NCBI GenBank assembly: GCA_950295325.1
Contig: OX485805.1
Coordinates: forward strand, 9,116,501-9,180,500
Length of the DNA stretch: 64,000 nt
From: Polytrichum commune
Taxonomy: Eukaryota > Streptophyta > Polytrichopsida > Polytrichales > Polytrichaceae
Reading direction: 5' to 3'
The first letter of the stretch is position 1. Each line of letters opens with the position of its first letter. The notes beneath the pieces were generated by a model. That model saw only the letters and a list, made by a program, of their open reading frames with translations, was not told where the DNA came from and made no database searches. Shown here piece after piece: positions 13,541 through 44,604 of the stretch. The translations under genes and the position numbers were made by a program.

Positions 13541-14607
13541 ATGGCAGCGTGAGTTATGGCGATGGTGCGACTGCTGCCTGCCGCCCTGGACACAGTCGAC
13601 AGTGCGACTGTGTGAGGGAAGCGCAAGCAATAAGAGCGTGGCGGGGTTTCATCGGATTGGTTTGTCACCGAATTCTTGTCCGAGGGGCGGGGGCAACGGA
13701 AAGGCTCGGTTCTCGAGGAAGGCCGTTAACTGTGTGGACGTGGTATCGATCAGATCGGTCTCCCTCGTGGATACTTATATACTTCTTACGAAGCTCATTT
13801 GCAAGAAGACTCTGCTGATTTCATGCTTTCATCCCGAGCTTCAATTACAGAGACTTCAGGTGGCTCTATTGTGGCTATTACAGTTTGTAGGTGAAGTTTT
13901 CAGAGACATGGTGGTGGTTGAGTGTTGCAGAAGGCCATGTGGACATCTGAGTGAGACTGTGTATTGGTGATTTATTGTTTAAGCTTCGGCGGTGGCAGTG
14001 TGCGAAGAAAGTGTGAAAGAAAGTGGAAGTGAAGGGTGAGTGGTTAGTGTTGGAGAAGCTCAAAGGTGGAGTTCCGCAGGTTGTCGAAAGGTTGAAGTGG
14101 CGGCGTCCATTACAGGTGTCCATGTTTGGGGAGGACTTAGACAGTGAGGGCTCCAGTTTTGTTGTTGCAATCGGGGCAGAGATCATTGGTAGTAGAACGG
14201 AGGGCGTCGTGACTATGAAAGCCTTTTGCAATCGACCTGAGAAGCTTTTTATTCGCCTCCCGCCTCTTGCACGTAATGTTGTACCTTCTCGGTTGAAGAT
14301 ATTATGAGTGCCTAACATCTGAAAATCCTGCAATGGAGAGCTTAGGTCTCGTGGACCTTGAAGTGAGATCTCTAGTCCCAGTTGTCAAACTCTTTGCTGG
14401 CCTCCCGGTTGCAGGCTGAAAAATTTGAAAGATTCCGTTTGTCGTTCCTGAAGTTGTGAAGGGAACGAATTATTCAGATCTCGAGTTTTGTAGCAAAGCT
14501 CCGATTGATCCTGAGCTCTAGAAAGTTGGCATGGTTCGGTTACCGACACATAATCGCATCCTCGGTAACTACTTCCATCGTGAGCTTATTGTAGCAAATC
14601 TTATACG

Positions 14608-16110
14608 ATGAGTTTTACGCTGCTGGAAGGTCAAGATAGCTTGGGCTCTCAGGCAAGCGTTCCGGACTCGATTGCAAGTAGCCAAAGCTCCTTCGGATCC
14701 ATCGCAAGCACCGCGTCCTGCCGCGGTCCTCACAAATGTCTAGCCATTTTACACGGCAACAAGGGCCATGTCATCTCGCTTGCCATGGCCGGAGACGTGC
14801 TGTACGCGGGCTCCGACTGCGGTGACATTAAGGCTTGGGAGCATCCGGATATGAAAGAGGCGGTTAAGTTCGGCTGCGCTGCGGGCTCAGTGAAATCTCT
14901 CGTTGTGGTTGGGAACAAATTGGTGAGTGCGCACCAGGACCACAAGATCAGAGTGTGGAGGAGGTCCAAGAGCCAGCCGCAAGTGCATAAGCTGCATGCA
15001 ACTTTGCCTTCGGTCAAAGACTACATCTCAAACTTTCTGCCTCCTAAAAACTATGTGCAGGTGAGCTAATTCTCCACCATCCTTCTTTCTTGACACTTCA
15101 AAATTTCGGGATCACAAATGCCATCGGCTGCGGAGATCTCTATGTTTTGATGCCTTCGACTGGAGAACTCTAGCTTCTCTCTGCCTCTTTTCTTGAAACG
15201 TTCATGTTTGTAATCACTGCAGAGAGCTCTATGTTCTCGGACCTTCTATTGAAGAACTCTAGCTCCGACATTACAAGGATGTCTGGAATTATTGAAACTA
15301 AAACACTGAAGTTGTTATGATGTTTGGTGGCAGATTCGGAGGCATCACAAGTCGTTGTGGATTGACCACAACGACAGCATCTCAGTGCTGGCAGTGGGGA
15401 AGGACGTCCTATACTCGGGCTCCTGGGACAAGTCCATCAAGGTATGGCGTCTTTCAGATTTCAAGTGTCTGGAAGCCATCAACGTACACATCGACGCAGT
15501 GAACGCACTTGCCGTAGACACTGTGAACCACTACCTCTACAGCGGCTCCGCAGACACGACAATCAAAGTTTTCTTGAAACACAAGGCGAGCAACAAACAT
15601 GCCTTAATCGCATGTCTGGAAGGCCCAAAGTCACCTGTAAATGCACTGGCCCTCAGTCCAGATGGCTCATACCTCTACTCCGGACACTCAGACAATACCA
15701 TTGTCGTGTGGAAGAGGCAAGATGACGAACACCTCCACGACCTGAAGCACATGTGTCCTGTGGGCCTGTTGCGAGGCCATCGCCAGGCGGTTCTCTGCCT
15801 CGCCACAATCTTTAACCTCGTCGTTGGCGGCTCGGCGGACAAGACCGTGAGGGTGTGGAAGCAGAACCGGAACGGGCTTCACACTTCTTTGTCTGTGATG
15901 GTTGGCCACACAGGGCCCGTTAAGTCGCTCTGCATTTCCACAGACATGGCGATGGGAGTGCTGGTGTACAGCGGAAGCATGGATCGTGATGTGCGTGTCT
16001 GGTGGATTCCAGAGGATGAGAAAGATTACATCTCCTCCGACGAGAGCTCGCCGGATAGTCCTGTGCTTGTCAAGTGGAGATTCTCAAACATAAGCCTCCC
16101 TTCTCTGTAG
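14608..16110 (+). CDS. JINGUBANG-like WD40-repeat protein, two exons
   Basis: Exon 1 is 14608-15060 and exon 2 is 15334-16110, with a 273-bp GT-AG intron (donor CAG|GTGAGC, acceptor GGTGGCAG|ATT) in phase 0. The product is 409 aa. Seven WD40 repeats are readable: two in exon 1 (KGHVISLAMAGDVLYAGS and KSLVVVGNKLVSAHQD regions) and five in exon 2, each ending in a WD-type dipeptide such as IKVW, IVVW, VRVW. The sequence NYVQ|IRRHHKSLWIDHND across the splice is typical of the plant JINGUBANG group. Those proteins are WD40 beta-propellers; the Arabidopsis founder restrains pollen germination by binding a TCP factor. Function here is inferred by family only. ATG 14608 is chosen because it opens the frame and precedes an S/T-rich N-terminus usual in the family. 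GC content is higher than the surroundings. No disruption is seen. Confidence 0.9.
15061..15333 (+). other. intron of the WD40 gene
   Basis: GTGAGC at the donor, a T-rich tract and GGCAG at the acceptor. Splicing joins the codons for NYVQ and IRRHH in frame and removes several stops in the reading frame. Without it the first frame ends at the TAA just after the donor. Confidence 0.85.
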
Positions 16111-23100: not shown

Positions 23101-23104
23101 AATA

Positions 23105-23440
23105 GAGTTATCCTTTAACTCAACCGGAGTTTTAGTAGGGAGTTGGTTGTTTCGCATGCATAACTTTCCATGTTCGGTAAGTTGTGGGTGCATGCTTGGA
23201 GTCAATGTGGAGGTTTGAACGAAGGACATTCCATATTAGTTCATTGGGTATCAAACTCATTTTGGCGTCTCTTGGCATGCCAAAATGAGTTTGATACCCA
23301 ATGAACTAATATGGAAGGTTCTTTGTTTAAACCTCCACATTGACTCTAAGCATGCACCCACAACTTACCGAACATGGAAAGTTATGCATGTGAAACAACC
23401 AACTCCCTACTAAAACTCCAGTTGAGTTAAAGGATAACTC
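23105..23440. mobile_element. near-perfect hairpin: 162-bp arms, 12-nt loop, TA on both sides
   Basis: The left arm is 23105-23266, the loop 23267-23278 and the right arm 23279-23440. The arms have equal length with no indel and seven mismatches by eye (about 96% identity). The ends are GAGTTATCC and GGATAACTC, each flanked by TA (23103-23104 and 23441-23442), which fits a Tc1/mariner (Stowaway-like) MITE reduced to its arms. The sequence would fold into a very long RNA hairpin if transcribed and could feed small-RNA production. The two short open frames on the arms encode the same peptide on opposite strands, simply because the arms are complementary. Confidence 0.8.
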
Positions 23441-23442
23441 TA

Positions 23443-24430
23443 ATAAGGATGTCAAAAAACATAAAGGATTTTGCGGTCTAACCCTAAACATGAAAGAGGA
23501 TGAGCATGCGGTCCTGCCCAAAAAAAGCCTAGAAATTGAATACTGAGAGATCATTCATTCCCCAGTGACCATGAGAGTTGCTCTGAGATAAATTGGAGTT
23601 TCCCAAAGAAGCTAGCAAACAGGGAGTCACGTTTGTGGCCCAAGAAATTGCTACAAAAAAAGTGGTGCCGTTTATGAAGCCAATGTATTCGTCTTTTGAT
23701 TGACTGATGGTGTATGTGAATGGTCTGCAAATCTATGTTAGAGGATATTGCAAGGACAGTTGTGATTAGGGAATCCAGTTTATTTTTCACTTGTGCTTGG
23801 TGCAAATGGCTATAATGATGATTCATGGAGGACAAGCTCATTATGAGCACTCGGTTTGTGATATCACTCTTATTGCCAATTTCAAGTGGTGAGCTTGGAT
23901 GGTAAATTTCATTTGGGTAGTAGAGTTTGTAGCTGGAGAAGCATGTTTCGGGCTCCCCAAAGTCCGGTTTCTCTCATGAGTGGAGGTTAGAAAGGTTGAA
24001 ATCAACACAAACAGACCCAGTGGAATCGGTCAGAAGCCAATTGCAAATTGTGTTGAGGTCTCTGACCAAGTAGAGGTCTTTGATCAGGTGGGTTTCATCA
24101 ATTTGCAAAATAATGCTGTATTCATGAGCAGACTACAAACCAGGTGGCCACACAGCCGTCGGCCATAACATTTGATCTTTGGAATATCAAGGAGACTAGG
24201 ATCATAAAGAAGAAACACTATCAATAAACAAATTCACAAATGTATCCACGAACACTATTGCAACACGCATTTACAACTCATGGTTGTAGTGATGCCAAGG
24301 TTAACGGAGGAACTACAATCTTCAATCATGATGAGAGACAACGTGAGTTATTTATAATTGATGTTGCTTCTTTTTTTCAACATATGGATCTCTAAGCCAC
24401 ATGAACACTGGAGAACTAATATATGTGCAA
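23443..24430. other. non-coding spacer left of the FLA cluster
   Basis: No gene or repeat was recognised. The last ~100 bp (from about 24340) begin to align with the 3' flanks of the second and third FLA units. Confidence 0.4.
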
Positions 24431-24451
24431 CCTACTATATAACATCTCTCA

Positions 24452-25520
24452 TCAGCAACCCTGTTGAGGTCGCGGGTTTGCCAGCACAACCCGGTGTTTA
24501 TTCCTACCACTAATTCAAACCATCCACCACTGCTGCTAACCCATGATCCGCTTCTGCTGACACTTCTCGCCAGCGGAATCTACGACATCCCATTAAATGA
24601 TCGAATGATCGCATCTTGCTAGATAATCTACAAAAGGGTTGCCACAGCAAGCAAAGCTACCATCAACAAAACTCCGCTGCTCTGCACAATTGAAGCTCCG
24701 CTCATGGCTTCAGAAGGCCCGGGGGACATGCTTCCTGGGGCCATGCTTGCGGGGGACACGGCGGGGGCCTTCACAGGGCTCTTCGCCGGGCCCCTCATGG
24801 GTGCCATCACTGGTGCCTTCACCGGAGCCTTCATGGGGGCCCCGCTGGGTGTGGTCGTAGCAGGGGCCATGGAAGGTCCCGTTGAAGGGCCCATCATGGG
24901 GGCGCCCACGGGAGCTACGCTGGGAGCAGGGGTGGGTGCCGTGGGCTTCAGGTTCAAAGGCACCAGCACATTGTCGATCTGGAAGAAGCTGTAGTTGTAT
25001 GGGGCGGCGGTCACATTGGTGATGATCACTGCCTGAGAAGGAGATCCCGGGGCAGCGGCGCTCACTGAGATCACATTGTTGGCCATGCCGGTAATGTTCA
25101 CGAATCCGTCTTGTCCGTTGGCGCGTCCGGTGGTCTGATAAAGAGTCGTCACCTGGGATCCGGGAGTGTAAGCCAAAGTCTGGAGGTTGCCCACATCCAG
25201 GTACTGCAACAGGACGTGGTAACTCAAAGCGTCGGCAACCTCCTGTGCGGTCAGGGTTTGGTGGGAAGCCACGAAGTTGTTCAGCACGGTGTTGTCGGGC
25301 ATGAGGAAGGTCAGAGAGCTCCTCATGTCCACTTCATTGATGATTCCTGTGGAAATCAGTAGTTGCCTGAAGGTGGAGTAATTGGGAAATGGTGCCAACA
25401 GATCCTCAACATTCTGTGCACTCGCTGCGACGCTGCACAGGAGAAGTGCAGCCACGAAAAGCTGCGCGGTAGAAGACTTCATGGTGGCCGATATATCTAC
25501 AACCTCGTGAATCTGTGATA
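24452..25520. repeat. FLA1 copy of an identical 1,069-bp tract
   Basis: By eye this segment is identical to 32101-33169 (constant offset 7,649). It covers 176 bp of 3' flank, the whole coding sequence and 38 bp upstream of the ATG. Identity stops sharply on both sides: A versus G at 24451/32100 and A versus T at 25521/33170. Outside it the two units are related but clearly diverged. Confidence 0.85.
24628..25482 (-). CDS. fasciclin-like arabinogalactan protein, copy 1
   Basis: 284 aa. Residues 1-22 form a signal peptide (MKSSTAQLFVAALLLCSVAA). One fasciclin domain follows, with H1-like SSLTFLMPDN and the conserved YH in LSYHVLLQYLD; several NxT/S glycosylation sites (NYS, NIT, NVT) lie in or near it. 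About residues 190-260 are an Ala-Pro/Met-Pro-rich arabinogalactan region with many AP, SP and TP dipeptides, the substrate of prolyl hydroxylation and O-glycosylation. The C-terminus (EAMSGASIVQ plus a hydrophobic tail) fits a GPI-anchor signal. Family members act at the plasma membrane-wall interface in adhesion and wall assembly. The start at 25482 has context GCCACCATGA; an in-frame ATG 17 codons upstream is rejected because it would precede the signal peptide and lie in the probable 5'-UTR intron. Single coding exon. First of three tandem paralogues. Confidence 0.93.
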   Translation of the reverse strand: MKSSTAQLFVAALLLCSVAASAQNVEDLLAPFPNYSTFRQLLISTGIINEVDMRSSLTFLMPDNTVLNNFVASHQTLTAQEVADALSYHVLLQYLDVGNLQTLAYTPGSQVTTLYQTTGRANGQDGFVNITGMANNVISVSAAAPGSPSQAVIITNVTAAPYNYSFFQIDNVLVPLNLKPTAPTPAPSVAPVGAPMMGPSTGPSMAPATTTPSGAPMKAPVKAPVMAPMRGPAKSPVKAPAVSPASMAPGSMSPGPSEAMSGASIVQSSGVLLMVALLAVATLL

Positions 25521-26165
25521 ACCACCAATGCAAACCCTAAACTTCAGTCACATTCTTCATCTACTACATCCCAAATGTAAACCTCTAGTCCCAAACAGTT
25601 AAATTCAGGAATGAAGAAACCTACAAGAATGGTCCCGTGTCCAGATTGCTCTCCCACAATCCGTAACCTAGTGAACCATTCGCCAGCATCTACAACTAGG
25701 AAGATCACCCTGAGCAATGCCTAGACAAAGGAATCGTGTCTCAAAGTGAACTTTTGAGACATCCTATTGAAGACCTTTATAAGACAAAAGAGCTGCAAAT
25801 TGAGATGATTATTCTGACATACTGAAGCTAAGACGATCTTTAAACGAAGGCATCCGAACATGTACTAAATCGCAGGAAAAGATTTAACTTTTTTAGCTAA
25901 TAGAACGCAGATATAGCATAAATCTCTCAATTACAATTGTAGGCAATACCAATCTAGGCAATGAACTACTGAATTACACTATACCACTAAAGAATTCAGG
26001 TGCCAATGAAAGACGACTTGTTGAAGGCAGTGATCGAAACCTACACTATGTGCACCGTATGCGAATCTAAAGGCAATCTATAACTCGGAGCACGAGATTT
26101 CCTGCACTGAATGCTTCTGAATACGTAACAACAGATGCTACCAAAGATGAGTATGTAGAACAAAC
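25513..26165 (-). other. probable 5'-UTR intron of FLA copy 1
   Basis: On the minus strand a donor AG|GTTTGT at 26165 and an acceptor TATCACAG at 25513 bound a 653-bp stretch without coding sense. The donor and its surroundings are conserved at the same place in copies 2 and 3. The tract shared exactly with copy 2 ends only about 8 bp inside this intron. Inferred from sequence only; no transcript evidence. Confidence 0.45.
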
Positions 26166-26305
26166 CTCTGAACTGTAAAGAACACCAAAGAGTAATTGGC
26201 TAGAAAGAGCAGGGGAGCCAGGATCCTCTGCTGCTCCTATTCCTCGTGTGAAGTCTCGGAGAAATGAAGCAGTGAGGATGTGAGGAACTAAGGAGTTTTC
26301 TGCGA

Positions 26306-26313
26306 CATATATG
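26306..26313 (-). promoter_or_regulatory. TATA box of FLA copy 1
   Basis: CATATATG on the minus strand, preceded by TGTGTG and followed by TCGCAGA. The same block stands at 33948 and 37664 in the paralogues, about 130-140 bp before the putative intron donor. Conservation in otherwise diverging DNA supports a core promoter. Confidence 0.6.
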
Positions 26314-26399
26314 CACACAATAGATGGCTGAGTCACGTAGATCCTGCCAGCGTCTGAAGCGTAAGTTAGATTTAGATATATATTAATTTACCACTCGGA

Positions 26400-26560
26400 T
26401 AAGAGACAAATCCTCGATCGGTAATTCAGTAATTCTTTGAATATTTGTCGAACTCGTTGAATGTGACTAAACCCTTAACGGCCACTTAACGGCCCAGTGA
26501 GAGGTGGAGCTCAAGGGCTCGTCACAAAAGAGCAGTTGGGAGGCCCCGTCCACGGATCAC
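26400..26560 (-). promoter_or_regulatory. conserved upstream block of FLA copy 1
   Basis: Strings shared with copy 2 are TTGTCGAACTCGTTGAATG, the direct repeat TTAACGGCC.CTTAACGGCC (26475-26494) and AAAGAGCAGTTG (26527-26538). The last is also kept in copy 3. The spacing to the TATA box is similar in copies 1 and 2. Candidate transcription-factor sites; AACGGCC and CAGTTG contain MYB-like cores (AACGG, CNGTTR). Confidence 0.5.
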
Positions 26561-26749
26561 ATCCATATGCTAAAAAAACAGAAAACATTTATAATTTATG
26601 GTCCTCTCACAGTAATGTACATATGTATGCAAATTGATCTGAAGTCAGAATCCAGAAGTACTGATTTGAATTTTCATCATAATCACAAATTTCATATTTG
26701 TGATGAGAAAAGTTGACATGATTGGTAAGAGTTACAAATTTTGGTAGAC

Positions 26750-29600
26750 TGGTAGAAATCTGCAAGCAGAACAAAGTCAACTGTAAATACTGCACCAGTA
26801 GTATTTTAGTTAGTGTCATCCATTCTATTCTGTCTTGCTCAATACTAATTGTAATCTGTCCATGTGGTGTCCCCAAAACTAAATGCAATGTAACATTATT
26901 TGTCATCCCTTGTTGAAAAAAATTGGGCATTATAGATATACAATGTTTTAAGTATTGTCACTTACTAAGTGATTTTTCGACCAAACTTCAATCATCCAAA
27001 AAATATTTTATTACAAAATTGTTAGGTTGCAGAATATATCAAATTGTGTTAATAGTTGGCATAGATTTCAATTTTTTTTTAAATTTTTTAAATTTTAAAT
27101 TTTTTATCATCCATGATAGTTATTGTAAACTTATTCATATGTTTTCACAGTGACCTAAAACACCATATGACACTAAATACAATATTTAGTGTAGTAAGGA
27201 CCCCGGTTAATCTCTAGATCTTTTCCTAGGCTTTGCACAATTTGTATTCTTGATCATAATGACGCTCTTGGGTCGAATAGGAGGAATAGAAGTCGTGATG
27301 AAAGCTTGTGGATGTCTATTACCAGATTATTGAAAGTTTGACCATCACTCAACAGTTTGGCACTAGGACCCAATACCCATGTTGCCTCAAGGGAACTTAA
27401 CAACAATTTGGGGATCGGTTTGGACCATCATGACCAACCTTTTCTTTTTGGAATGTTTTGAATATTGAATGGTTGGCTTTAGGAAATTGTGGAATTGTTG
27501 CATATGTGGTTATTAAAAACATGTTTATTTAGGATATCTTGCCACAAATAACTTAACATTTTTGACACACTAGCTATACACAGTGAAAGCAAGATTGAAA
27601 TATATGGCAATATTTATAGTAAGAAAGTAATAGCCAAAGGCGATAGATAAATTGCTTGAATCTAGAAATGGTCATGAGGGTCTAAAGCCAAACCTCAAAT
27701 TAGCTAAAACGTGGATTTTTTCTAAGAGTTGGCTCAGGTGTGAGGGGTAGACCTCTTGGACATATCAACTTACAATAATATTTGCTTAGGATGGATGGGC
27801 ACTCAAGGTCATAAATCTTGCTTCTAGAGAAGGACGCCTCTGATTCATGAGCAAACCAAGCATGCTTGCGAGCAGAGGGCACATCCAAAGGCATTGGACC
27901 ACACACATTCCTCAAGCTTACGAAGTATACTTTGAGGGTAGTGTTGGGCTTCAACTTACCCCCCTTTGACATGATTGTGATTGACATGGATTCAAGATTC
28001 ACAGTCAAGGTTGATCGCAGAGGGAGGGTTGGCCACATAATTACAAAGAGGACCAAATCACCAAGTGACCAGATCACCAAGTAGATCAAATTACCAAGAA
28101 AACGAGATTCATTTGTGTTGTGCTCGTACCAAAAAATGAGATTCACCTCATATTCAACCACATCCCACGCTATACCAATAACATTCATAAAAACAACCAC
28201 AAATCATAACAAAACAAACACGTAATAAAAATATGAAGGAAGGAAGCTTTGAGCTTCCTTGTTTGGCTGAGGCAATAGAGCACAATCAAGGAATTGGCCC
28301 TTGAATCCATCCCCCACAATCACACAAGTTCCAACAATTTCAACCATGATTGCTACATGACAATTGCTCACCACTCCCCCAAGAAGAAGAAGAACTTTGG
28401 CCCACATGACCAGCGTGAATGAACAGTCTATTGGGGGGAGTGCTATCATCGTGGTCTCCATGACCAAGATGACGGATGCTACCCTTGATGCACTCTTTCA
28501 AGGGTAGACTCTATAGCTACAAAGTAATAAGTACAAATGACAAGAAATAAGTAGGATTGATATTTTGTTTAGTTTTTATGGTTGTGTGTTGGATGGCCAC
28601 TCCTTTAAGTTGGAGTATAGCCCCCCCAACCCCATTGTAGTTGGAAGTGCACATGTATAAACTCCCCATCAAGGAACAAAAACTTGGCAAGTTGGAATTG
28701 CAGAGTGAGCAACAAAGAGATTGGTCACTAGTCATTGCAATTACCAACATTACGCATTAGCAACCAATGTACATTCATCCTAGGTGATGAAACCAAAGGC
28801 GATGGCGAATTGGCAGTTTGTGACTACTATGGCAATGAAGAGCTCATAGGCGATGAACAAAGTGACAATGAAAAGCTAAGGGAGGGGGAAAATGGGCACA
28901 TGAGATCTCACATGTGACAATGAGACTCAAATCTGTTGGCAAGGATGTCGCATCGCTGGCTAAATGTAGAGGAGGATGGCAACTAAGAGAAAATGAGTAG
29001 GGCTTCCAGGTTAGTGGAGGGGCCACTCTAGACAAGTGGCAACCAAAGTAATGATGGTCCTTGCCACTCTGTGAACCTGGAAATTTTAACACATGTTTCT
29101 TGTGGTTCCCAAATTTGTTTTGATATTTGGCCCCTTTTAGCCCTCAAGAAAAGGTTTATCAAGACTAATCGGTGACATGGGAGTAACCTGGCAAGGCCTT
29201 CAAGACTAGTGGTTGCTTTGGTTGTTCACGTGGGGCACGGGTGTAACTAGTATATAGACAATTATGGACAATTCTGAACTAAAATAACACTGGATGTCTG
29301 CTTCAATATCTCCACTATGATGCCAAATACATGTGCACATCATGTCTACGGTCTTTTGATATATAGTCACCTACATAACACTACATGTTGAGTACAAATA
29401 ACAACACTTGAAACACAAATGTTCACATTTCTCAAAATTGCTTGCTTAATTCCAAACTCGTCAAAAATTTGGAAATGCCTAAATGTCAGTGGTGTCAAAC
29501 TTCCAACTGCAAATCTTAAATTGGTATCAGTTCAACCACTTTGGGAAATTATGTCTCTTTCCCTCAACTATCGACTCAAGGTGAAGAGAGGTTCCTTCTC
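26750..29600. other. extra ~2.8-kb segment present only in FLA unit 1
   Basis: Sequence matching FLA unit 2 stops near 26750 and resumes near 29650 (compare 34430 onward), so this stretch looks inserted or lost elsewhere. It contains a CACTA-like MITE end at about 27155-27194. A 166-codon minus frame (27700-28200) matches no family I recognise. No second terminus or target duplication was found. Confidence 0.4.
27155..27194. mobile_element. single CACTA-like MITE end
   Basis: Read on the minus strand from 27194: TACTACACTAAATATTG, then ATTTAGTGTCATATGGT. This is nearly the same as the left end of the MITE at 6706. No partner end was found, so it is a fragment. Confidence 0.45.
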
Positions 29601-29649
29601 CCCTTGAATTTATAGAGAGAAACAAAAGAAAGAAAAGCTCAAAGAATTT

Positions 29650-31120
29650 AAGGGTAACTTTACTAACCTTGAAGACTTGATCATGATCTACTAGTCAAGG
29701 TGTACCTTGAGATGTGAAATACTTCAAGAGGTATAGAAGATAACCACTCATAAAACTTAAAGATCAAGCTTCTAGAGGTGATAGATGATTCCAATAACTT
29801 ATTCTAGGATAAACAAGTGATAAGAAATGATATATGTTAGCAAGATCTAATCATTAGAAATTGAGAGTCTCAGGGATATGAAGATCTGAGCTTTCAAAAT
29901 GACATTTCTGGGTCGTTCACACTTCTTGCTTGATAGCTCTTACTCGAATGAATTAATTGAAGAGTCTGTGTTAACTCTCTCCTCAAGACCTTTCCAACTT
30001 CCTCAACCTATGGACCACATAACCAGGCGAGTGGAGAGTGACTGCCACAATTGTATTCTCTTCAAAGGCAATTGTCCTCCAAATTTGTGCACACAAACCT
30101 CTTAAACCCAGGCACTCATCTCATGATCAACAGAGAAAATGTCAGCTCTCTTCAAGGAAATTCTTAGTCAGAAGTGAGACATTAACATGGCCATCCATCC
30201 GATCAGGAATAAGTTACATGGAACAAGGCCAAAGACTGTAAGATTACCTTGCTGAAGGTGGGCTACCTAATTACTCGTGGATGCTTCAACTTCAGGGTAG
30301 AGTAGCAAAATGAATGAAGACACTAAAATTTCAAAAAGCAAAAGATTCAAAATAGCCATGCAGAATTCATGGAAAACGAGACCCAGGAAAGAAGAACAAA
30401 TTTCATGAGCTCGAACTACATGATGTTCACACAGCTTCTTCAAATCATCTTCATCCTTTTCTCAACCGATATTCTCAATTCATTTATGTTCGCCCTACAG
30501 ATAAGGTCCTTCTCAGCTTCCACATAGATTACCATCTGTCACAGTGTGCATTGATGAGGAACAGGAGGAAGGTTCAGCTTGAGAAAACGCGTGTGATTCA
30601 TTCAACTCAGTAATGCCACTGACAACCTATTAAAGCTGAGCGTTTTAGAGGAAACTCTTGATAGAAACAAACTGCTCAATGCTAAATATTCCAGTTAACT
30701 AGTGCCAGGTTCCCCCACATAGGGTATGAGCGTAAGCATTCTAGGAAATATGGAGTGTACGAAGATGCTAGGATATAGGGAGGCAGATTAAGCGCAGATC
30801 AAGCATAAGGAATTGTGGAAAGTCCAAAACGCCATTGTACACAGGTCTTCACCTCCGCTTGATTAACCTGCAAGCCAATGTTCATATAAGGTTTGTGGAT
30901 CTTGTGTGGTCAATCTACTTAACTGGACATCTATTTTGATTGGTATGTGGCAAAGCTTGTAGTTAAATTATGACACTGAAGAAACACATATTGCGATAGA
31001 ATTAAATTAGGGTTCAGAATGTAGACATCATTCTCCTATACAAAACTGGGGAAGGTCTATGTGATCGTTTGAACCAGTTGTGAGCAGAAGAAAAGGGAGA
31101 TAAGTTTGGATAAGTAACAA
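29650..31120. other. distal upstream part of FLA unit 1
   Basis: This stretch aligns, with much divergence, to 34430-35690 in unit 2, and its first part to 38280-38520 in unit 3. Examples are 'CATAAAACTT..GA.CAAGCT.CTAGAGG.GATA' and 'CACATAAC.AG.CGAGTG'. Non-coding; it defines the extent of the tandem duplication. Confidence 0.5.
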
Positions 31121-31180
31121 AATCACGCATGACATTTCAAATTTCTGTGCAATACTAAGCAAACTTGCCTTTCATGAAGA

Positions 31181-31936
31181 AAGGATACTATCAATTCAAA
31201 ACATATTAAGGATACTATCAATTCAAAACATATTAAGGATACTATCAATTCAAAACATATTAAGGATACTATCAATTCAAAACATATTAAGGATACTATC
31301 AATTCAAAACATATTAAGGATACTATCAATTCAAAACATATTAAGGATACTATCAATTCAAAACATATTAAGGATACTATCAATTCAAAACATATTAAGG
31401 ATACTATCAATTCAAAACATATTAAGGATACTATCAATTCAAAACATATTGAGGATACTATCAATTCAAAACATATTAAGGATACTATCAATTCAAAACA
31501 TATTAAGGATACTATCAATTCAAAACATATTGAGGATACTATCAATTCAAAACATATTAAGGATACTATCAATTCAAAACATATTGAGGATACTATCAAT
31601 TCAAAACATATTGAGGATACTATCAATTCAAAACATATTAAGGATACTATCAATTCAAAACATATTGAGGATACTATCAATTCAAAACATATTGAGGATA
31701 CTATAAATTCAAAACATATTAAGGATACTATCAATTCAAAACATATTGAGGATACTATCAATTCAAAACATATTGAGGATACTATCAATTCAAAACATAT
31801 TGAGGATACTATCAATTCAAAACATATTGAGGATACTATCAATTCAAAACATATTAAGGATACTATCAATTCAAAACATATTGAGGATACTATCAATTCA
31901 AAACATATTGAGGATACTATCAATTCAAAACATATT
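31181..31936. repeat. minisatellite, 28 copies of 27 bp
   Basis: Exactly 28 head-to-tail units of 27 bp, each opening with AAGGATACTATCAATTC or the same with GAGG. The first ten units are all the A type. The remaining eighteen are mixed (five A, thirteen G). One unit near 31703 has a C-to-A change. Because 27 is a multiple of three, long open frames run through it on both strands (266 codons on minus), encoding nine-residue repeats. Those frames are a consequence of the period, not evidence for a protein. The array lies about 340 bp beyond the FLA copy 2 stop codon and has no equivalent at the unit 2/unit 3 boundary. Confidence 0.95.
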
Positions 31937-32004
31937 GTAACTCATCACAAAGTACAGAGAGAGTAACACGAGAGAGGGTGAGCGAATGGTCATCAATGTT
32001 GCTA

Positions 32005-32010
32005 TTTATT
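32005..32010 (-). terminator. polyadenylation signal of FLA copy 2
   Basis: AATAAA on the minus strand in the context CTGAATAAATAGCAAC, about 270 nt after the stop codon. The same hexamer in the same context lies at 35785-35790 behind copy 3. Confidence 0.55.
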
Positions 32011-32100
32011 CAGGAATGATGAGGCTCCCATGTAGTTAGATCTGTTAGCCACATAAAGAATCAATAACTAATATACACAACTACTATGTAACATCTCTCG

Positions 32101-33169
32101 TCAGCAACCCTGTTGAGGTCGCGGGTTTGCCAGCACAACCCGGTGTTTATTCCTACCACTAATTCAAACCATCCACCACTGCTGCTAACCCATGATCCGC
32201 TTCTGCTGACACTTCTCGCCAGCGGAATCTACGACATCCCATTAAATGATCGAATGATCGCATCTTGCTAGATAATCTACAAAAGGGTTGCCACAGCAAG
32301 CAAAGCTACCATCAACAAAACTCCGCTGCTCTGCACAATTGAAGCTCCGCTCATGGCTTCAGAAGGCCCGGGGGACATGCTTCCTGGGGCCATGCTTGCG
32401 GGGGACACGGCGGGGGCCTTCACAGGGCTCTTCGCCGGGCCCCTCATGGGTGCCATCACTGGTGCCTTCACCGGAGCCTTCATGGGGGCCCCGCTGGGTG
32501 TGGTCGTAGCAGGGGCCATGGAAGGTCCCGTTGAAGGGCCCATCATGGGGGCGCCCACGGGAGCTACGCTGGGAGCAGGGGTGGGTGCCGTGGGCTTCAG
32601 GTTCAAAGGCACCAGCACATTGTCGATCTGGAAGAAGCTGTAGTTGTATGGGGCGGCGGTCACATTGGTGATGATCACTGCCTGAGAAGGAGATCCCGGG
32701 GCAGCGGCGCTCACTGAGATCACATTGTTGGCCATGCCGGTAATGTTCACGAATCCGTCTTGTCCGTTGGCGCGTCCGGTGGTCTGATAAAGAGTCGTCA
32801 CCTGGGATCCGGGAGTGTAAGCCAAAGTCTGGAGGTTGCCCACATCCAGGTACTGCAACAGGACGTGGTAACTCAAAGCGTCGGCAACCTCCTGTGCGGT
32901 CAGGGTTTGGTGGGAAGCCACGAAGTTGTTCAGCACGGTGTTGTCGGGCATGAGGAAGGTCAGAGAGCTCCTCATGTCCACTTCATTGATGATTCCTGTG
33001 GAAATCAGTAGTTGCCTGAAGGTGGAGTAATTGGGAAATGGTGCCAACAGATCCTCAACATTCTGTGCACTCGCTGCGACGCTGCACAGGAGAAGTGCAG
33101 CCACGAAAAGCTGCGCGGTAGAAGACTTCATGGTGGCCGATATATCTACAACCTCGTGAATCTGTGATA
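32101..33169. repeat. FLA2 copy of the identical 1,069-bp tract
   Basis: Partner of 24452-25520; no difference was found by eye. The tract boundaries fall 37 bp 5' of the ATG and 176 bp 3' of the stop. Confidence 0.85.
32277..33131 (-). CDS. fasciclin-like arabinogalactan protein, copy 2
   Basis: 284 aa, identical in sequence to copy 1 including synonymous positions: signal peptide, one fasciclin domain (SSLTFLMPDN, YHVLLQYLD), Pro/Ala/Met-rich arabinogalactan stretch, hydrophobic C-terminus for a GPI anchor. The start at 33131 has the same GCCACCATGA context; the in-frame ATG 17 codons upstream is again excluded. Flanks differ from copy 1 at roughly one base in four or five, so the identity is not explained by a recent whole-unit duplication alone. 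A minisatellite lies between this gene and unit 1. Expected location: outer face of the plasma membrane. Because the product equals copy 1, any divergence of function must come from the promoters. Confidence 0.93.
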   Translation of the reverse strand: MKSSTAQLFVAALLLCSVAASAQNVEDLLAPFPNYSTFRQLLISTGIINEVDMRSSLTFLMPDNTVLNNFVASHQTLTAQEVADALSYHVLLQYLDVGNLQTLAYTPGSQVTTLYQTTGRANGQDGFVNITGMANNVISVSAAAPGSPSQAVIITNVTAAPYNYSFFQIDNVLVPLNLKPTAPTPAPSVAPVGAPMMGPSTGPSMAPATTTPSGAPMKAPVKAPVMAPMRGPAKSPVKAPAVSPASMAPGSMSPGPSEAMSGASIVQSSGVLLMVALLAVATLL

Positions 33170-33818
33170 TCCACCAATTCAAACCCTAAACTTTAGTCAC
33201 ACATTCGTCATCTACTGCACTCCAGGAATCCCAAAATCCAAAATGCAAACTGCTAGTCTCACATAATTACATCCACGAACAAAGAAACCTACAAAACGAG
33301 ACCGTGTCCACATGCTCTCCCACAATTCGTAACCTTGACAGCGTGAAGGATGCCATAGCGTCTAAACTAAAGGAAGGTCATCCTAGGCAACGCCTACACA
33401 AAGGGACAGAGGAAGGGGCATTAATTTTTAAGATTAGAAGAGAAATCAAACGGACATTTAAATGATGGGAAGTCATGCTGAAATAGAGATGATACTTAAA
33501 CACAGGCATCCAAACCCCAAAGTTTGCAGGAAAATATTCAAATCTGCAGCTAATAACGCCGAAATCTCACAATTACAAAACCCCTGCAAAGTTTCAAGAG
33601 CATAACAATCTAATTACTGGTCTAATCGACTATACAAAGGAACTCAAGAATTCAAGTGCCAATCATAGATTAGTTGTTGAAGGCAGTGATCGAATCCTAC
33701 ATTGCTGCCCACCGCATACAAACCTAAAGCCTGTCTGTAACTCGGACCGAGAGATATCCTGCATTGAATGGTTCTGAATAGTTAACAAAAAGATGCAACC
33801 AAAGATGATAGAACAAAC
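33162..33818 (-). other. probable 5'-UTR intron of FLA copy 2
   Basis: Donor AG|GTTTGT at 33818 and acceptor TATCACAG at 33162 on the minus strand, 657 bp. The position is equivalent to that in copies 1 and 3. Inferred from conservation only. Confidence 0.45.
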
Positions 33819-33947
33819 CTCTGAAATACAAGGTACACCAAAGAGTTGACCAGAAAGAGCAGGGGGGCCCAAATCCTCTGCTGCTCTTACACCTCGTATG
33901 ATGCTACGGAGAAATGAAGAAGTGAGGAAGTGAGGAATTCTCTGCGA

Positions 33948-33955
33948 CATATATG
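33948..33955 (-). promoter_or_regulatory. TATA box of FLA copy 2
   Basis: CATATATG in the context GGTGTGCATATATGTCGCAG, conserved in copies 1 and 3. The upstream TTAACGGCC direct repeat (34125-34144) and AAAGAGCAGTTG (34177-34188) are kept at comparable distances. Confidence 0.6.
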
Positions 33956-34109
33956 CACACCGTAGGTGGCTGACTCATGTAGCTTCTGCTATCTACTGTA
34001 GTGTAATTTAAGTAGGTTTAGATTTAAATTAATTTATTACTCGGATCTGAGAAATAATCCTCGATCTGTAATTCAGTATTACTTAGAATACGATTTGTCG
34101 AACTCGTTG

Positions 34110-34200
34110 AATGTGACTAAATCCTTAACGGCCCCTTAACGGCCCAGTGAGGGGTAAAGCACAAGGGTTAATCACGAAAGAGCAGTTGTGAGGCCCCATC
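34110..34200 (-). promoter_or_regulatory. conserved upstream block of FLA copy 2
   Basis: TTAACGGCCCCTTAACGGCC at 34125-34144, GTGACTAAATCC beside it, and AAAGAGCAGTTG at 34177-34188. These match the block at 26400-26560. The AAAGAGCAGTTG.GAGGC string is the only long one also found above copy 3 (37911-37928). Confidence 0.5.
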
Positions 34201-35784
34201 AACGGATCACATCCATACAGTGAAAAATACAGAAAATACTTTTGGTCGTTCTATAGTGACGCATATGTTCAACAGATTTAATTAAATCCTTAATTTAAAG
34301 CTGAATTTATGAAATTATATCATAACCACAAGTCTCAGTATCGTGATGATAAACTTGATAGGATGGTTAGAATCTCAATTAATGGTAGATTGTTACTAGA
34401 AAGGTGCAACCATAATACGACTTTGAAGACTTCGTCACATTGTCTAAGGTGTTTCTTCATTTGGTATAGAGGATGACCATTCATAAAACTTCATGACGAA
34501 GCTCCTAGAGGCGATATACAGTTTCCATAGCTACATGTGGAGAAGAAATTGCTAAGAAATGCCTATCATGTGATTTTGAGTATCTAATTTTCATGTTTAA
34601 GTCACTTAGGATCCAAGATTTCAAATTGACATTCTTGTTTTAAGTTGGTACCATTTTGCTGGATAGCTTACTTGTATGAGATAAATACGAAGAGTCTGTT
34701 GGAGCTCTCCTGAAGGCTTTGGCAACGTGCTAAAGCCTACGGAACTACATAACTAGTCGAGTGCGAAGTGAATGGAAAATTGGGCTCATAATTCAAAGTA
34801 GAGACTTCTGCATATAAACCTCTCAAAAACTCAACCAAGGCACAAATCTCAACAGATAACAGGTAGTCAGGTCTCGTCGAGGAATTCTCAGTCACCTGAA
34901 GTGGGACATGACCATGCCACCTATCCGATCAGGAATACATGCAACTAAGCCACAGTCCCTAAGGTGTCCTTGTTTAAGGTAAATTGGGGAAATATGTTGC
35001 GATTGCCCCACTTCCTAGACTCGTGGCTTCTTAAACTTCAGCGCAGAGTTGACGAATGAAAAAAGATGCAACAATTTCCAAAAGCACAATTTTCAAATTA
35101 GCAATGGAAAATGTATGGAAGACTAGGAAACAAGAAGACCTCATGAGCTCAAACTAACCGAGCATCTGCATACAATTCCCGACCAACATCCTCATTTCCG
35201 CTCCTTTTATTTTTCACATGGATACTTATCTGTCGCACTGTGCATTTGTGAAGAGGAGGAATTGCATTGGGAAGGTACGCATATCATCTTACCAATTCCA
35301 TTGCTATTCTATTGAAGTTAAATTGGGAGAAAAAGGCTTGAAAGCAACAAACTCCTGAGTACATGCTCCATGATTATGACATATTTTGAAGCGTATGTTT
35401 GTGTAGTGAAATTCAGCTTGCAGAGTATCGTGGGTTTAGCTACCAGCCATTTTGTTGCTCGACCCTGTTATAGGATGTTTCGGGCACCGCAATTTCCTGC
35501 AGACTGCAGGTTTTTACTATCCAGCATGCCTTTGTTTTGAGAATTTCAATTGCAAATTGGTTCGTGGGCAGAAGAGGATACACACAAACGCATAACTGAT
35601 TTCATTCCGCATGACATTCCATATACAGTAGAATACTAAGCGATATGTATTTCATGTGGATCAAGCACTACGACTTTTTCCACAATAATGGGCTAGTAAC
35701 GGACTAGGAGCACAGCTGCGGGAGCAACTCCAATTTAGAAACATGTAGCGAGGGAACGAGAACACAGTATTCTCAATGTTGCTA

Positions 35785-35981: not shown

Positions 35982-36800
35982 TTACAAAAATGCAACGGCG
36001 GCGATGACGGCTCCGACCAACAAAGCCCCACTGCTCTGCACCATGGAAGCTCCACTCATGGCTTCAGAAGGGCCTGGGGCCATACTTCCAGGTCCCATGC
36101 TTGCCGGGGACATAGCAGGGGCTTTCATGGGGCTCTTTGACGGGCCACCCATGGGTGCCATCTTGGGGGCCATGCTAGGTGGGGTCATAGTAGGGGCCAT
36201 TGAAGGACCCATCATGGGGGCGCCCATGGGAGCTCCGGTAGGGGCAGGGGTGGGTGCCATGGGCTTCAAGTTGTTGGGCACGAGCACATTGTCGATCTGG
36301 AAGAAGCTGTAGTTGTATGGGGCGGCGGTCACATTGGTGATGATGGCAGCCTGAGGAGGAGATCCGGGGGCAGCTGCGCTCACTTCGATGACGTTGTTGG
36401 CCATGCCGGTGATGTTCACGAATCCGTCTTGTCCGTTGGCACGTCCAGTGGTCTGATAAAGAGTCGTCACCTGAGATCCGGGAGTGTAAGCCAAAGTCTG
36501 GAGAGTGGGCACATCCAGGTACTGCAACAGGACGTGGTATCTCAAGGCATCGGCAACCTCCTGTGCGGTCAGGGTTGGGTGGGAAGCCACGAAGCTGTTC
36601 AGCACGGCGTTGTCGGGCATGAGGAATGTCAATGAACTTCTCATGTCCACATCATTGATAATTCCTGTGGAGATCAATAGTTGCCTGAAGGTGGAGTAAT
36701 TGGGGAATGGTGCCAAAAGATCCTCAACCTTCTGGGCGTTCGCTGCAACACTGCACAGGAGCAGTGCGGCCACGAAAAGCTGCGCGGAAGAAGTCTTCAT
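35982..36800 (-). CDS. fasciclin-like arabinogalactan protein, copy 3
   Basis: 272 aa, closely similar to copies 1 and 2 but clearly diverged, with a shorter arabinogalactan region. The architecture is the same: signal peptide MKTSSAQLFVAALLLCSVAA, fasciclin domain with SSLTFLMPDN and YHVLLQYLD, N-glycosylation sites, Pro/Met/Ala-rich stretch (about residues 180-245), and a GPI-type tail ending in a hydrophobic AAVAFL. The ATG lies directly at the signal peptide; the upstream context (GGCAAATATGA) is unlike the GCCACC of its sisters. This copy has escaped the homogenisation seen between copies 1 and 2. Expected role: cell-surface adhesion or wall organisation, by family. Confidence 0.92.
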   Translation of the reverse strand: MKTSSAQLFVAALLLCSVAANAQKVEDLLAPFPNYSTFRQLLISTGIINDVDMRSSLTFLMPDNAVLNSFVASHPTLTAQEVADALRYHVLLQYLDVPTLQTLAYTPGSQVTTLYQTTGRANGQDGFVNITGMANNVIEVSAAAPGSPPQAAIITNVTAAPYNYSFFQIDNVLVPNNLKPMAPTPAPTGAPMGAPMMGPSMAPTMTPPSMAPKMAPMGGPSKSPMKAPAMSPASMGPGSMAPGPSEAMSGASMVQSSGALLVGAVIAAVAFL

Positions 36801-41728: not shown

Positions 41729-42072
41729 AGAGCAGGGCAACGAACGAAGAGGGATGGCTCGCTCCAGGAAACGCAGGCGAAGCCCTGCCGGTTTGAGGAG
41801 CACATCGAGATCTGTGCCTTGAAGCATGGCGAAGAACATTTGGGATAACGGAGAATGTAGGCGAGCATAGTGATTGCGTAACACAAGAGAGCTCAATGAT
41901 ACCAGAAAACAAAAGATGGTGATTAGATCTGTAGAAACTTAAGTTTAGATCTGTTTCAGGAGTTAAGCGGCGAAGATTAAGAAAAGACAAGACAGTTGCT
42001 CCCAGGGGTTTGCGAAAGTAACGTTGGACAACAGTACGTTGCGTGATCCAGATCTACAGTGTTGTGGGGAAA

Positions 42073-44604
42073 ATGAGCGAAACGCACGGGGGGGAGAGGA
42101 ATGCAATGCAGGCAACCAACACTGGGGGCATGGAATCCTTTGCGTCCAAAGTAAGGTTTGGAAATGCAACACGCTTTGATCCGATGATGGAGGAGAAAGG
42201 AGGATGGATCGCCGGAGAGGCACCACGCCAAGACATCGATATGGAAGAAGCGGTGATTGAAGGGCTAGCGGAGGCGAGTCAACAGATCTTGGGGGGAGAG
42301 CTTAATCCCTTCAAAGGACATAGTGGTGAGATCCTTCCATCAAACTTGGAAAGAAGTTTTAGTGGTTTCTTAGTGAAAAAAGAAGCCATTCAATTCAAGG
42401 TCAATACTGAAAAGTTGCTTGCGAGGATTGAAGTGTTGAAGGATCAACTCTTGATTGGGAAATTTGTGGGCCCCAAACCGCCACCCCAAGCAATGAGACT
42501 CTGGATTCAAACCCTAAATCTTGAGTTAGGGGAAAATGCATTATCGTTGTGTAGAAATATTGGGAAAGGGTTCTTTCTCCTTAAAGGTGAAGATCGAGAT
42601 GCATTAAATGTTGCATTGATGATGTCGCCATTTAGATCCAAGTGGGGCACGTGTATGATGCAAAGCTGGGTTCCAGGGTTTAACCCCGATAACCCTAGCA
42701 ATCTAGCATTCCCAACGTGGGTTAGTCTAAGGAATTTGCCTCATGAACATCAAGATCAAGCTATTAGTATAGCAGGAACCCTAGGGGAAGTTATTGGTAT
42801 GGAAACGGCCAATGACACCGCAAAAGATCCAAGGTTCTGTGTGAATCTAGAAATTAGCAAAGGGTGGGCAACAAGCATAGAACTGGTGACAGAGGGAGGA
42901 ATCTTGCCACCCCAAACAGTAATGATCGACTATGACAAACTGCCTATTAGATGTAGGGTGTGTCTAAGTTGGAGGCACAAAGCTAGTGACTGCAAGGAAG
43001 TGCAAAAAAGACCGCTGAAAGGTAGAGAACAGCCAGCATACAATCATACAACACATCAACAAGAGAAAGGCAAGAACATTGCAGTAGATCAAGATGGCTT
43101 TCAGCAGGTTAGGAACAAGAAAAATATACGAAGAAACATTTTTGAGAGTGATCGAGAAAGGGGTCAGAATAGTAAGTGGAGAGGAAATGGTGGCAATCAA
43201 GTACAATCTTTCGGAGCTGCGGCTCCCGCCGCAGCACAAAAGAATATGGAAAAAGAGTGGGGATGCGAAAACAGATCGATTGGAGAGAAACAAAAATCTC
43301 CAGGCCGCACAATCCAGGGGCAGGGAGTGGGAGAAGACGCTAACGAGCCAATAGTGAATATCGAAAGCATCTCACCGAGAGCGCAAGAAACAGGAGAGAA
43401 GGGAGGTGTAGGAAGGGGGGAGAAGGGCTCCTGCAGCGCCGAAGAAGTTGCCAAAGTACCACGAGATGAGGACAGAGCGCCTAGCAATGGGAGAACGGAG
43501 CAGAGACAAGGGCCGACAGATGGGCTTGAGAGAGAAAAGGGAAGTATGGAGACTGTAGCCGTTGAAGGCAGGAAGGAGACCCTCGAAGATGGAGAGATCG
43601 CCGAAGCTAGGACACAAAACAAGCTCCCGCTTTCAGGTTGCCAGACGCCAGGTACTAGTGGCGCAGGTGGAGATGATGAAGAGCAGCCAGAACTAGAAAC
43701 GACAATGAATTGGTCCCCTACCAAAAAAGCAGGGCAGAAGAGAAGCCTGGAAGCGATTGAAACTGATGAAGAGAGTGTAGCAAACACAAGTGAAGGTGAG
43801 GAAGAAGAGGAGGAGCCGGAAGCTAACGGTAGGCGAGAGGCAGGAGAGAAAGGGGATGGTCTCGACCGGGACAGAACTGGCGCAGAGGCCTGGAGCCGGG
43901 GAGCCGGGAATGAAGGGCAGCATCCCCAGGCCATGGCTCTGTTGGGTGCCGAAGGGGCGCACTGGAACTCTGGGCCCATGGAGCACAACCACCCAATCAG
44001 AGAGGAGGCTACCACACCAACGAGGAAGGTGGGAGCGGATGACACCAGAAGTCCGAGCCCAGCAAGGGGGCTCAACAATTTTTCCGAAAAAAGAAGAAAC
44101 AAACATACAGTAAGTGCTCCAACACAGAGTGAAGCAAGCCCAGCAGGAAAGCATAACAGAGCTGGGAAAATTCAGAGAGTACTAGAAAAGGATACGTCAC
44201 AATCAGATTTGGTAAGGGATACTGAAGGAAGAATGGTCCCAAATACAGAATTCCCTGTGGCAAGCAGGCAAACACAAGTAGAGGTAATCCCAGAAACCCA
44301 AATTCTACCACTACAAAGCAATAGCAAGGTATACAAGGATATACTAGCTAGCATAGGGTTGGATAGCCCGACCTCATCACATGATACAAGAGGCAACCTA
44401 CTAGGGGAGGAGCTAAGACGGCCACATGATAACACTCCAATACGGACTAGTGCAGCTAGTCTCATAGCCTTAGGCAAGCATATTTTTACCCCTAGGCAAG
44501 GTAGAAGTTGGGAAAGCATAAATAAATCACCGCTAGGAGTTAACCAAGGCATAAATCCCCATGTGGGAAGCAATGTGGAATGGGAGACAATGAAAGACAT
44601 ATAG
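42073..44604 (+). CDS. LINE ORF1 protein (DUF4283-like, zinc knuckle)
   Basis: 843 aa from ATG 42073; an open stretch reaches 30 bp further upstream without an ATG. The N-terminal third resembles the DUF4283-type domain of plant L1 ORF1 (FLVKKEAIQFKV, GKGFFLLKGEDRDAL, LAFPTWVSLRNLP). One CCHC zinc knuckle follows at about residue 294 (CRVCLSWRHKASDC, spacing C-x2-C-x4-H-x4-C). The rest is a long, charged, low-complexity region rich in E, G, R and K, then a conserved tail (SASLIALGKHIFTPRQG in the near relative form) that is recognisable in the relic at 54660-54945. ORF1 proteins bind element RNA and form the ribonucleoprotein. The stop TAG (44602-44604) touches the ORF2 ATG, and both ORFs are in the same frame. 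Long antisense frames here come from composition. Confidence 0.88.
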   Translation: MSETHGGERNAMQATNTGGMESFASKVRFGNATRFDPMMEEKGGWIAGEAPRQDIDMEEAVIEGLAEASQQILGGELNPFKGHSGEILPSNLERSFSGFLVKKEAIQFKVNTEKLLARIEVLKDQLLIGKFVGPKPPPQAMRLWIQTLNLELGENALSLCRNIGKGFFLLKGEDRDALNVALMMSPFRSKWGTCMMQSWVPGFNPDNPSNLAFPTWVSLRNLPHEHQDQAISIAGTLGEVIGMETANDTAKDPRFCVNLEISKGWATSIELVTEGGILPPQTVMIDYDKLPIRCRVCLSWRHKASDCKEVQKRPLKGREQPAYNHTTHQQEKGKNIAVDQDGFQQVRNKKNIRRNIFESDRERGQNSKWRGNGGNQVQSFGAAAPAAAQKNMEKEWGCENRSIGEKQKSPGRTIQGQGVGEDANEPIVNIESISPRAQETGEKGGVGRGEKGSCSAEEVAKVPRDEDRAPSNGRTEQRQGPTDGLEREKGSMETVAVEGRKETLEDGEIAEARTQNKLPLSGCQTPGTSGAGGDDEEQPELETTMNWSPTKKAGQKRSLEAIETDEESVANTSEGEEEEEEPEANGRREAGEKGDGLDRDRTGAEAWSRGAGNEGQHPQAMALLGAEGAHWNSGPMEHNHPIREEATTPTRKVGADDTRSPSPARGLNNFSEKRRNKHTVSAPTQSEASPAGKHNRAGKIQRVLEKDTSQSDLVRDTEGRMVPNTEFPVASRQTQVEVIPETQILPLQSNSKVYKDILASIGLDSPTSSHDTRGNLLGEELRRPHDNTPIRTSAASLIALGKHIFTPRQGRSWESINKSPLGVNQGINPHVGSNVEWETMKDI

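Follow-up and report, generated by a model that had tools for sequence, protein, structure and literature searches.

Two neighboring genes of Polytrichum commune that encode proteins of the fasciclin-like arabinogalactan (FLA) plan share a tract without a single difference that is embedded in anciently diverged flanks. The best explanation, and a very probable one, is that these old tandem paralogues recently underwent gene conversion without crossover. The genes are located in a window of 64,000 nucleotides (C3:9116501-9180500 of the chromosome-sized contig OX485805.1) in an assembly of 408 Mb and 64 contigs, which was searched as a whole. Pairwise alignment of FLA copies 1 and 2 revealed an exact run of 1,069 bp (24452-25520 = 32101-33169) that is terminated at both ends by differing bases (24451/32100 and 25521/33170). 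A third copy lies within the window and a fourth beyond it. The principal features are as follows.

24387-26771: copy 1 unit, homologous to 32039-34415 in a BLAST self-comparison
32039-34415: copy 2 unit, homologous to 24387-26771 in the same comparison
24452-25520, minus strand: probable conversion tract of copy 1, identical to 32101-33169; exact run, adjoining bases differ
32101-33169, minus strand: probable conversion tract of copy 2, identical to 24452-25520; exact run, adjoining bases differ
24628-25482, minus strand: FLA copy 1 coding sequence (CDS), 284 amino acids, ATG to TAG; Fasciclin PF02469, E 4.8e-09
32277-33131, minus strand: FLA copy 2 CDS, 284 amino acids, same DNA as copy 1 (nonsynonymous and synonymous divergence, dN = dS = 0)
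35982-36800, minus strand: FLA copy 3 CDS, 272 amino acids; PF02469, E 2.7e-08; dS 0.376 to copies 1 and 2
C3:9198373-9199212, beyond the window: FLA copy 4, ~49 kb past copy 2

The identical tract

The tract comprises the 855 bp CDS, 176 bp of 3'-untranslated region (UTR) after the stop codon and the 38 bp that precede the ATG, and its two occurrences are in the same orientation at an offset of 7,649 bp. The original prediction had proposed an identity of ~1,069 bp with these same limits, and both the length and the limits match the alignment and the two CDSs. When the units were aligned in windows, as had been suggested, each of the 26 40-bp blocks wholly within the tract matched at 40 of 40 positions, whereas full blocks that lay beyond or straddled an edge had between 7 and 38 matches, most with gaps. 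The flanks therefore are less similar than the tract, and the substitutions and indels that had been ascribed to them were found. When the assembly was searched with the tract at the DNA level, at least five matches were obtained and, among the matches listed, only copies 1 and 2 were 100% identical. Within the tract dS is 0 over ~215 synonymous sites and all 214 noncoding bp also are identical. As the identity extends to silent and noncoding sites, it is not a product of protein constraint. The tract identity is real in this assembly and is no chance effect.

Copies 1 and 2 encode one and the same 284-amino-acid fasciclin-domain protein. The domain was tested on copies 1 and 3, with a PF02469 match of 36.9 bits against a cut-off of 22. 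FLA proteins are recognized by an N-terminal signal peptide, a Pro/Ala/Ser/Thr-rich arabinogalactan protein region and a C-terminal glycosylphosphatidylinositol signal. Judged by eye, the translations appear to hold a signal peptide and a Pro/Ala-rich region in addition to the fasciclin domain, and their C-terminus appears hydrophobic; we take this to be the layout of this protein class. The prediction that copy 3 is not homogenized holds, as this copy is 84% identical to copies 1 and 2. Copy 4, which was absent from the prediction, also is unhomogenized, and dS values among copies 1/2, 3 and 4 are 0.367-0.436. A protein search of the assembly yielded seven matches, and the next after the four copies was 46% identical. 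A looser genome-wide search with the PF02469 model produced 11 matches with none of the four FLA copies listed. Thus, family counts from this model search are incomplete.

Divergence of the flanks

The flanks of copies 1 and 2 within the units differ at 16-28% of sites in addition to indels, with a value of 26.5% for the predicted 5'-UTR intron. Kimura two-parameter (K2P) distances between the copies are 0.185 in the promoter (171 bp), 0.193 in 5'-UTR exon 1 (131 bp), 0.328 in the intron (608 bp) and 0.348 in the 3' flank (69 bp), compared to 0 in the tract. Zero differences in 1,069 bp thus are set within flanks with distances of 0.185-0.348. The BLAST comparison joined the two units at 83.8% identity, tract included, and homology resumes at 29722-30418 versus 34455-35156 (66%). 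Further 3', 47% of the sites aligned in 24200-24379 are mismatched between the copies, and it is doubtful whether this segment is homologous.

Sites that were polymorphic in the four-copy alignment were subjected to a GENECONV-like permutation with 20,000 shuffles. The longest run of agreement between copies 1 and 2 spans 214 polymorphic sites, which was attained in 0/20,000 shuffles; the largest shuffled run was 38 sites, or 49 when the analysis was restricted to 24380-26480. At the age of the flanks, ~79 (promoter distance) to ~141 (intron distance) silent differences would be expected among the ~429 silent sites of the tract, and a scaled expectation that assumes 0.30 differences per UTR site gives 39 synonymous and 53 UTR differences. 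None was observed in either case. Runs for two further pairs were nominally long: copies 1 and 4 (25/2,000 shuffles; 47/2,000 with restriction to 24380-26480) and copies 2 and 3 (13/2,000 shuffles; 1,356/2,000 with restriction). These runs are of only 10 sites each with p values uncorrected for six pairs, and exchange among these copies is not claimed. In two short segments copy 4 is a better match to copy 1 than copy 2 is, namely 24421-24440 (18/20 versus 12/20) and 25701-25720 (19/20 versus 15/20), which may reflect either older exchange or chance.

Recent duplication of the entire unit followed by rapid divergence of the flanks would account for the identical core, and nothing further in its favor was found. 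The flank differences with their indels, the abrupt tract edges, and ~3 kb at 26771-29722 that lack a counterpart in the copy 2 unit, where the bordering homologous blocks are ~40 bp apart, all contradict this scenario. Unless the mutation rate shifts precisely at the tract edges, it already is refuted by the flank divergence and its probability is negligible.

The age of the putative event was approximated with a per-lineage rate of 9.4e-9 per silent site per year, which was calculated here from the Physcomitrella values of Ks 0.85 and 45 million years in a part of PMC1952061 that itself urges caution. At this rate the intron divergence corresponds to ~17 million years, and the zero differences in the tract place the event at less than ~0.37 million years (95% bound). 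With rates between 5e-9 and 1.5e-8, the bound for the tract varies from 0.70 to 0.23 million years. These ages are orders of magnitude only, and the Physcomitrella rate may not be that of the host.

Tract edges and transcript features

Transcript features around the tract were predicted by eye, including a TATA-like motif upstream of exon 1.

25513-26165, minus strand: predicted 5'-UTR intron of copy 1 (GT...CAG), donor and acceptor by eye
26166-26309 (upper end approximate), minus strand: predicted 5'-UTR exon 1 of copy 1

The intron donor GTTTGT is aligned in all four copies and the acceptor CAG is evident in copies 1 and 2 (25513-25515 in copy 1). Exon 1, which was split from the intron at 26167/26168 for the K2P calculation, has the lowest distance of the noncoding compartments in five of the six copy pairs. 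The tract enters the 3' end of the predicted intron by 8 bp. Copies 1 and 2 remain alike at 18/20 positions in the 20 bp past this edge, and the true event therefore may have ended anywhere nearby. At the opposite side the tract ends inside continuing homology: the next three 20-bp windows have 12, 14 and 14 matches of 20, after which homology fades. An AATAAA motif that the four copies have in common (24497-24502 in copy 1) is located 45 bp inside the 3' tract edge, and a second AATAAA is present in copies 2, 3 and 4. The copy 2 tract edge falls 91 bp short of the latter. As the tract extends 8 bp into the intron and stops at neither AATAAA, it coincides with neither the predicted transcript nor the CDS alone.

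The position of the 5' edge beside the splice acceptor raises the alternative that the repair template was cDNA reverse-transcribed from the spliced transcript of one copy. The eight intron bases could be identical by chance given the similarity of the adjoining 20 bp, and the poly(A) sites are merely guessed from motifs. However, the intron is retained in both copies and the 3' edge fits no predicted transcript end well, so that a cDNA template is highly improbable.

Probable gene conversion by non-crossover repair

Overall, the data favor recent gene conversion as originally predicted. An identical core with old homologous flanks on both sides, together with unconverted copies 3 and 4, requires a double exchange, which is the product of non-crossover break repair between paralogues. 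In contrast, neither unit duplication nor retrocopy insertion nor a single crossover would be expected to leave homologous diverged sequence on both sides; retrocopy insertion and unit duplication were rejected as sources of the tract as diverged homology persists on either side. The following sequence of events is proposed. Copies 1 and 2 would have existed as old tandem paralogues of the fasciclin-like arabinogalactan plan when a double-strand break occurred recently within or close to one of them. The other copy, whether on the sister chromatid, the homologue or the same chromatid, would then have served as repair template. A non-crossover outcome would have overwritten about 1,069 bp of the recipient, the segment that now is identical in both copies. 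Sequence similarity would have confined the tract, with stable pairing in the coding exon and termination at the indel-rich intron and 3' flank. The donor was sought; an identical tract without an outgroup keeps no informative difference. GC-biased conversion was considered and rejected: at CDS sites where copies 3 and 4 agree with each other but not with copies 1/2, there are 18 AT-to-GC and 22 GC-to-AT changes.

Copy 1 differs from copies 3 and 4 by 13% in the CDS compared to 44% (copy 3) and 33% (copy 4) in the intron. As the coding exon is the most alike part of old paralogues, the needs of pairing alone predict an exon-centered tract. Thus, limited similarity between the copies is enough to bound the tract, and selection is not needed to explain its position. 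The original prediction had viewed conversion as limited to the coding exon, thereby preserving the protein while the promoters were free to diverge. The tract is indeed centered on the exon, but is loose at the 3' end where 176 bp of 3'-UTR are included. The idea that the promoters in particular are freed to diverge is not supported: the promoter distance is about that of exon 1 and is below those of the intron and 3' flank. Accordingly, neither the content of the tract nor the promoter distance supports a role for conversion in keeping one protein under separately evolving promoters.

Comparison with other gene families

Fourteen light-harvesting (Lhcb) genes in both orientations are clustered at C5:1751760-1846160. 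The sample that was examined consisted of all 14 C5 matches at 177.1 bits and two copies on C7. Among the 120 pairs formed by these 16 copies, 27 have an exact run of at least 150 bp and the longest is 355 bp. The C7 pair was omitted from later counts. Exon identity among the 14 C5 copies is 96.0-98.8% in 91 pairs (median 97.2%) with a median dS of 0.126 (0.035-0.202). Median flank values are 0.395, 0.467 and 0.392; these flanks mostly are unalignable and after alignment are near to unrelated DNA. As an exception, copies L022 and L023 are 99.5% identical over the 200 bp that follow the stop codon. The best match of an Lhcb exon in the PDB was a 620-residue LHCI chain (9vfj), followed by 8htu and 7xqp, which are Physcomitrella complexes. 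At another location, C4:5552659-5568151, the order of four PF00504 matches is that of a mirror image and their scores are equal in pairs, which suggests a recent palindromic duplication.

Several observations weigh against conversion of the FLA pair. The few other sets that were examined gave no second event of equal clarity. Permutation of the 14 C5 Lhcb copies at a global 5% level identified 0/91 pairs at all sites and 1/91 at third positions, and conversion therefore is not claimed for that array. A Fasciclin pair on C1 has no homogenized tract, with similarities of ~0.6-0.7 in the domain and ~0.3-0.6 elsewhere. A lone clear case says nothing about the frequency of such events in the genome. 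In the short 3' flank of the FLA units (69-72 bp), K2P distances are 0.278 for copies 2 and 3, and 0.348 both for copies 1 and 2 and for copies 1 and 4. Copies 1 and 2 are not mutually closest in this flank, and the older history of the genes therefore is not simple. Finally, the exons may truly differ, with one consensus written over the other during assembly or polishing. Such errors classically arise between paralogues whose exons are similar. The same assembly kept the 14 Lhcb copies distinct despite their high exon identity, and both copies of the FLA tract are set in mutually different flanks on each side. Moreover, the tract includes 3'-UTR in which copies 1/2 differ by 24.5% from copy 3 and by 33.5% from copy 4; had copies 1 and 2 differed there to the extent of their own intron, reads would hardly be expected to cross-map. 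An artefact is unlikely on these grounds.

Repeated or ongoing homogenization, in which selection favors a single protein under two promoters, would fit the juxtaposition of old flanks with an identical exon and finds a parallel in the Lhcb exons, which are alike despite flank medians of 0.39-0.47. However, one event accounts for the zero differences between copies 1 and 2, the UTR also is within the tract, promoter divergence is below that of the intron and 3' flank, and homogenization has bypassed copies 3 and 4. The Lhcb array itself shows little sign of conversion tracts, and its exon similarity may be plain constraint. Continued homogenization of the FLA pair thus is very unlikely, and a single recent conversion remains by far the best reading.

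The neighborhood of the FLA genes

A minisatellite is located on the copy 2 side.

31181-31936: 27-bp minisatellite, 28 copies, 98% matches (TRF)

The array is separated from the copy 2 tract by 164 bases. A search with its pattern that permitted at most two mismatches gave 28 matches in the assembly, all at 31181-31936. Since its period is divisible by three, several reading frames remain open across the array. It may be speculated that the minisatellite promotes breaks. That it acts as a break hotspot repaired from copy 1, with one-way copying that keeps the copy 2 exon equal and the promoters separate, is an improbable elaboration.

The ~3 kb segment on the copy 1 side (26771-29722) probably belongs to a transposable element family. 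A search with 27100-29650 returned at least 87 matches, the query itself among them (40 of 585 candidates were scored); the matches lie in dispersed places, span roughly two thirds of the query and are 68-91% identical to it. Elsewhere in the window, two long adjacent stop-to-stop frames of 860 and 1,418 codons at 42022-48861 resemble by eye a LINE-type (long interspersed nuclear element) retrotransposon. A near-perfect inverted repeat is present at 23103-23442 with arms of 164 nt that are 96% complementary and 12 nt apart. Open frames at 14584-16110 appear by eye to be similar to a gene for a WD40-repeat protein.

Relation to known systems and implications

Conversion of mainly coding sequence between diverged flanks already is documented, and the FLA pair is a fresh instance. 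In the part of PMC3071340 drawn on here, the CDSs of clustered hsp70 paralogues in Stratiomys are homogenized by gene conversion and, as with the FLA pair, homogeneity drops with distance from the CDS and the flanks have large indels. In one case at least 300 bp of 3'-UTR were converted to exact identity (PMC3071340). That system differs in that several alleles and repeated conversion are described, whereas a single tract in one genome is described here. Concerted evolution by gene conversion has been suggested for tandem arrayed genes of Physcomitrella (PMC3045890, citing another paper). This similarly concerns highly similar tandem copies attributed to conversion, in a probably related plant, but the available part of that paper makes a general remark without tract anatomy. 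Intergenic conversion among clustered silk genes of the spider Argiope, as outlined in the portion of PMC9779670 used, also involves neighboring paralogues that are more similar in the gene than their noncoding flanks suggest. The spidroins are long and repetitive with homogenized introns, whereas the FLA gene is short, has a single coding exon and contains an intron that has diverged. Exchange between plant paralogues is further known from the RPP8 family of Arabidopsis (PMC6771003); these are highly polymorphic disease-resistance genes that were studied in a population, in contrast to one identical pair in one genome. A limited literature search, which says little, found no report of gene conversion in tandem FLA genes.

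The FLA pair leaves the understanding of gene conversion unchanged, and provides a clear case, within a single genome, of old tandem paralogues with a recent conversion. Reads that are shorter than the tract and fall inside it are not assignable to either gene. Gene trees or duplication dates based on the CDSs of this pair would mislead: the apparent age would be near zero, whereas the age indicated by the intron is far older.

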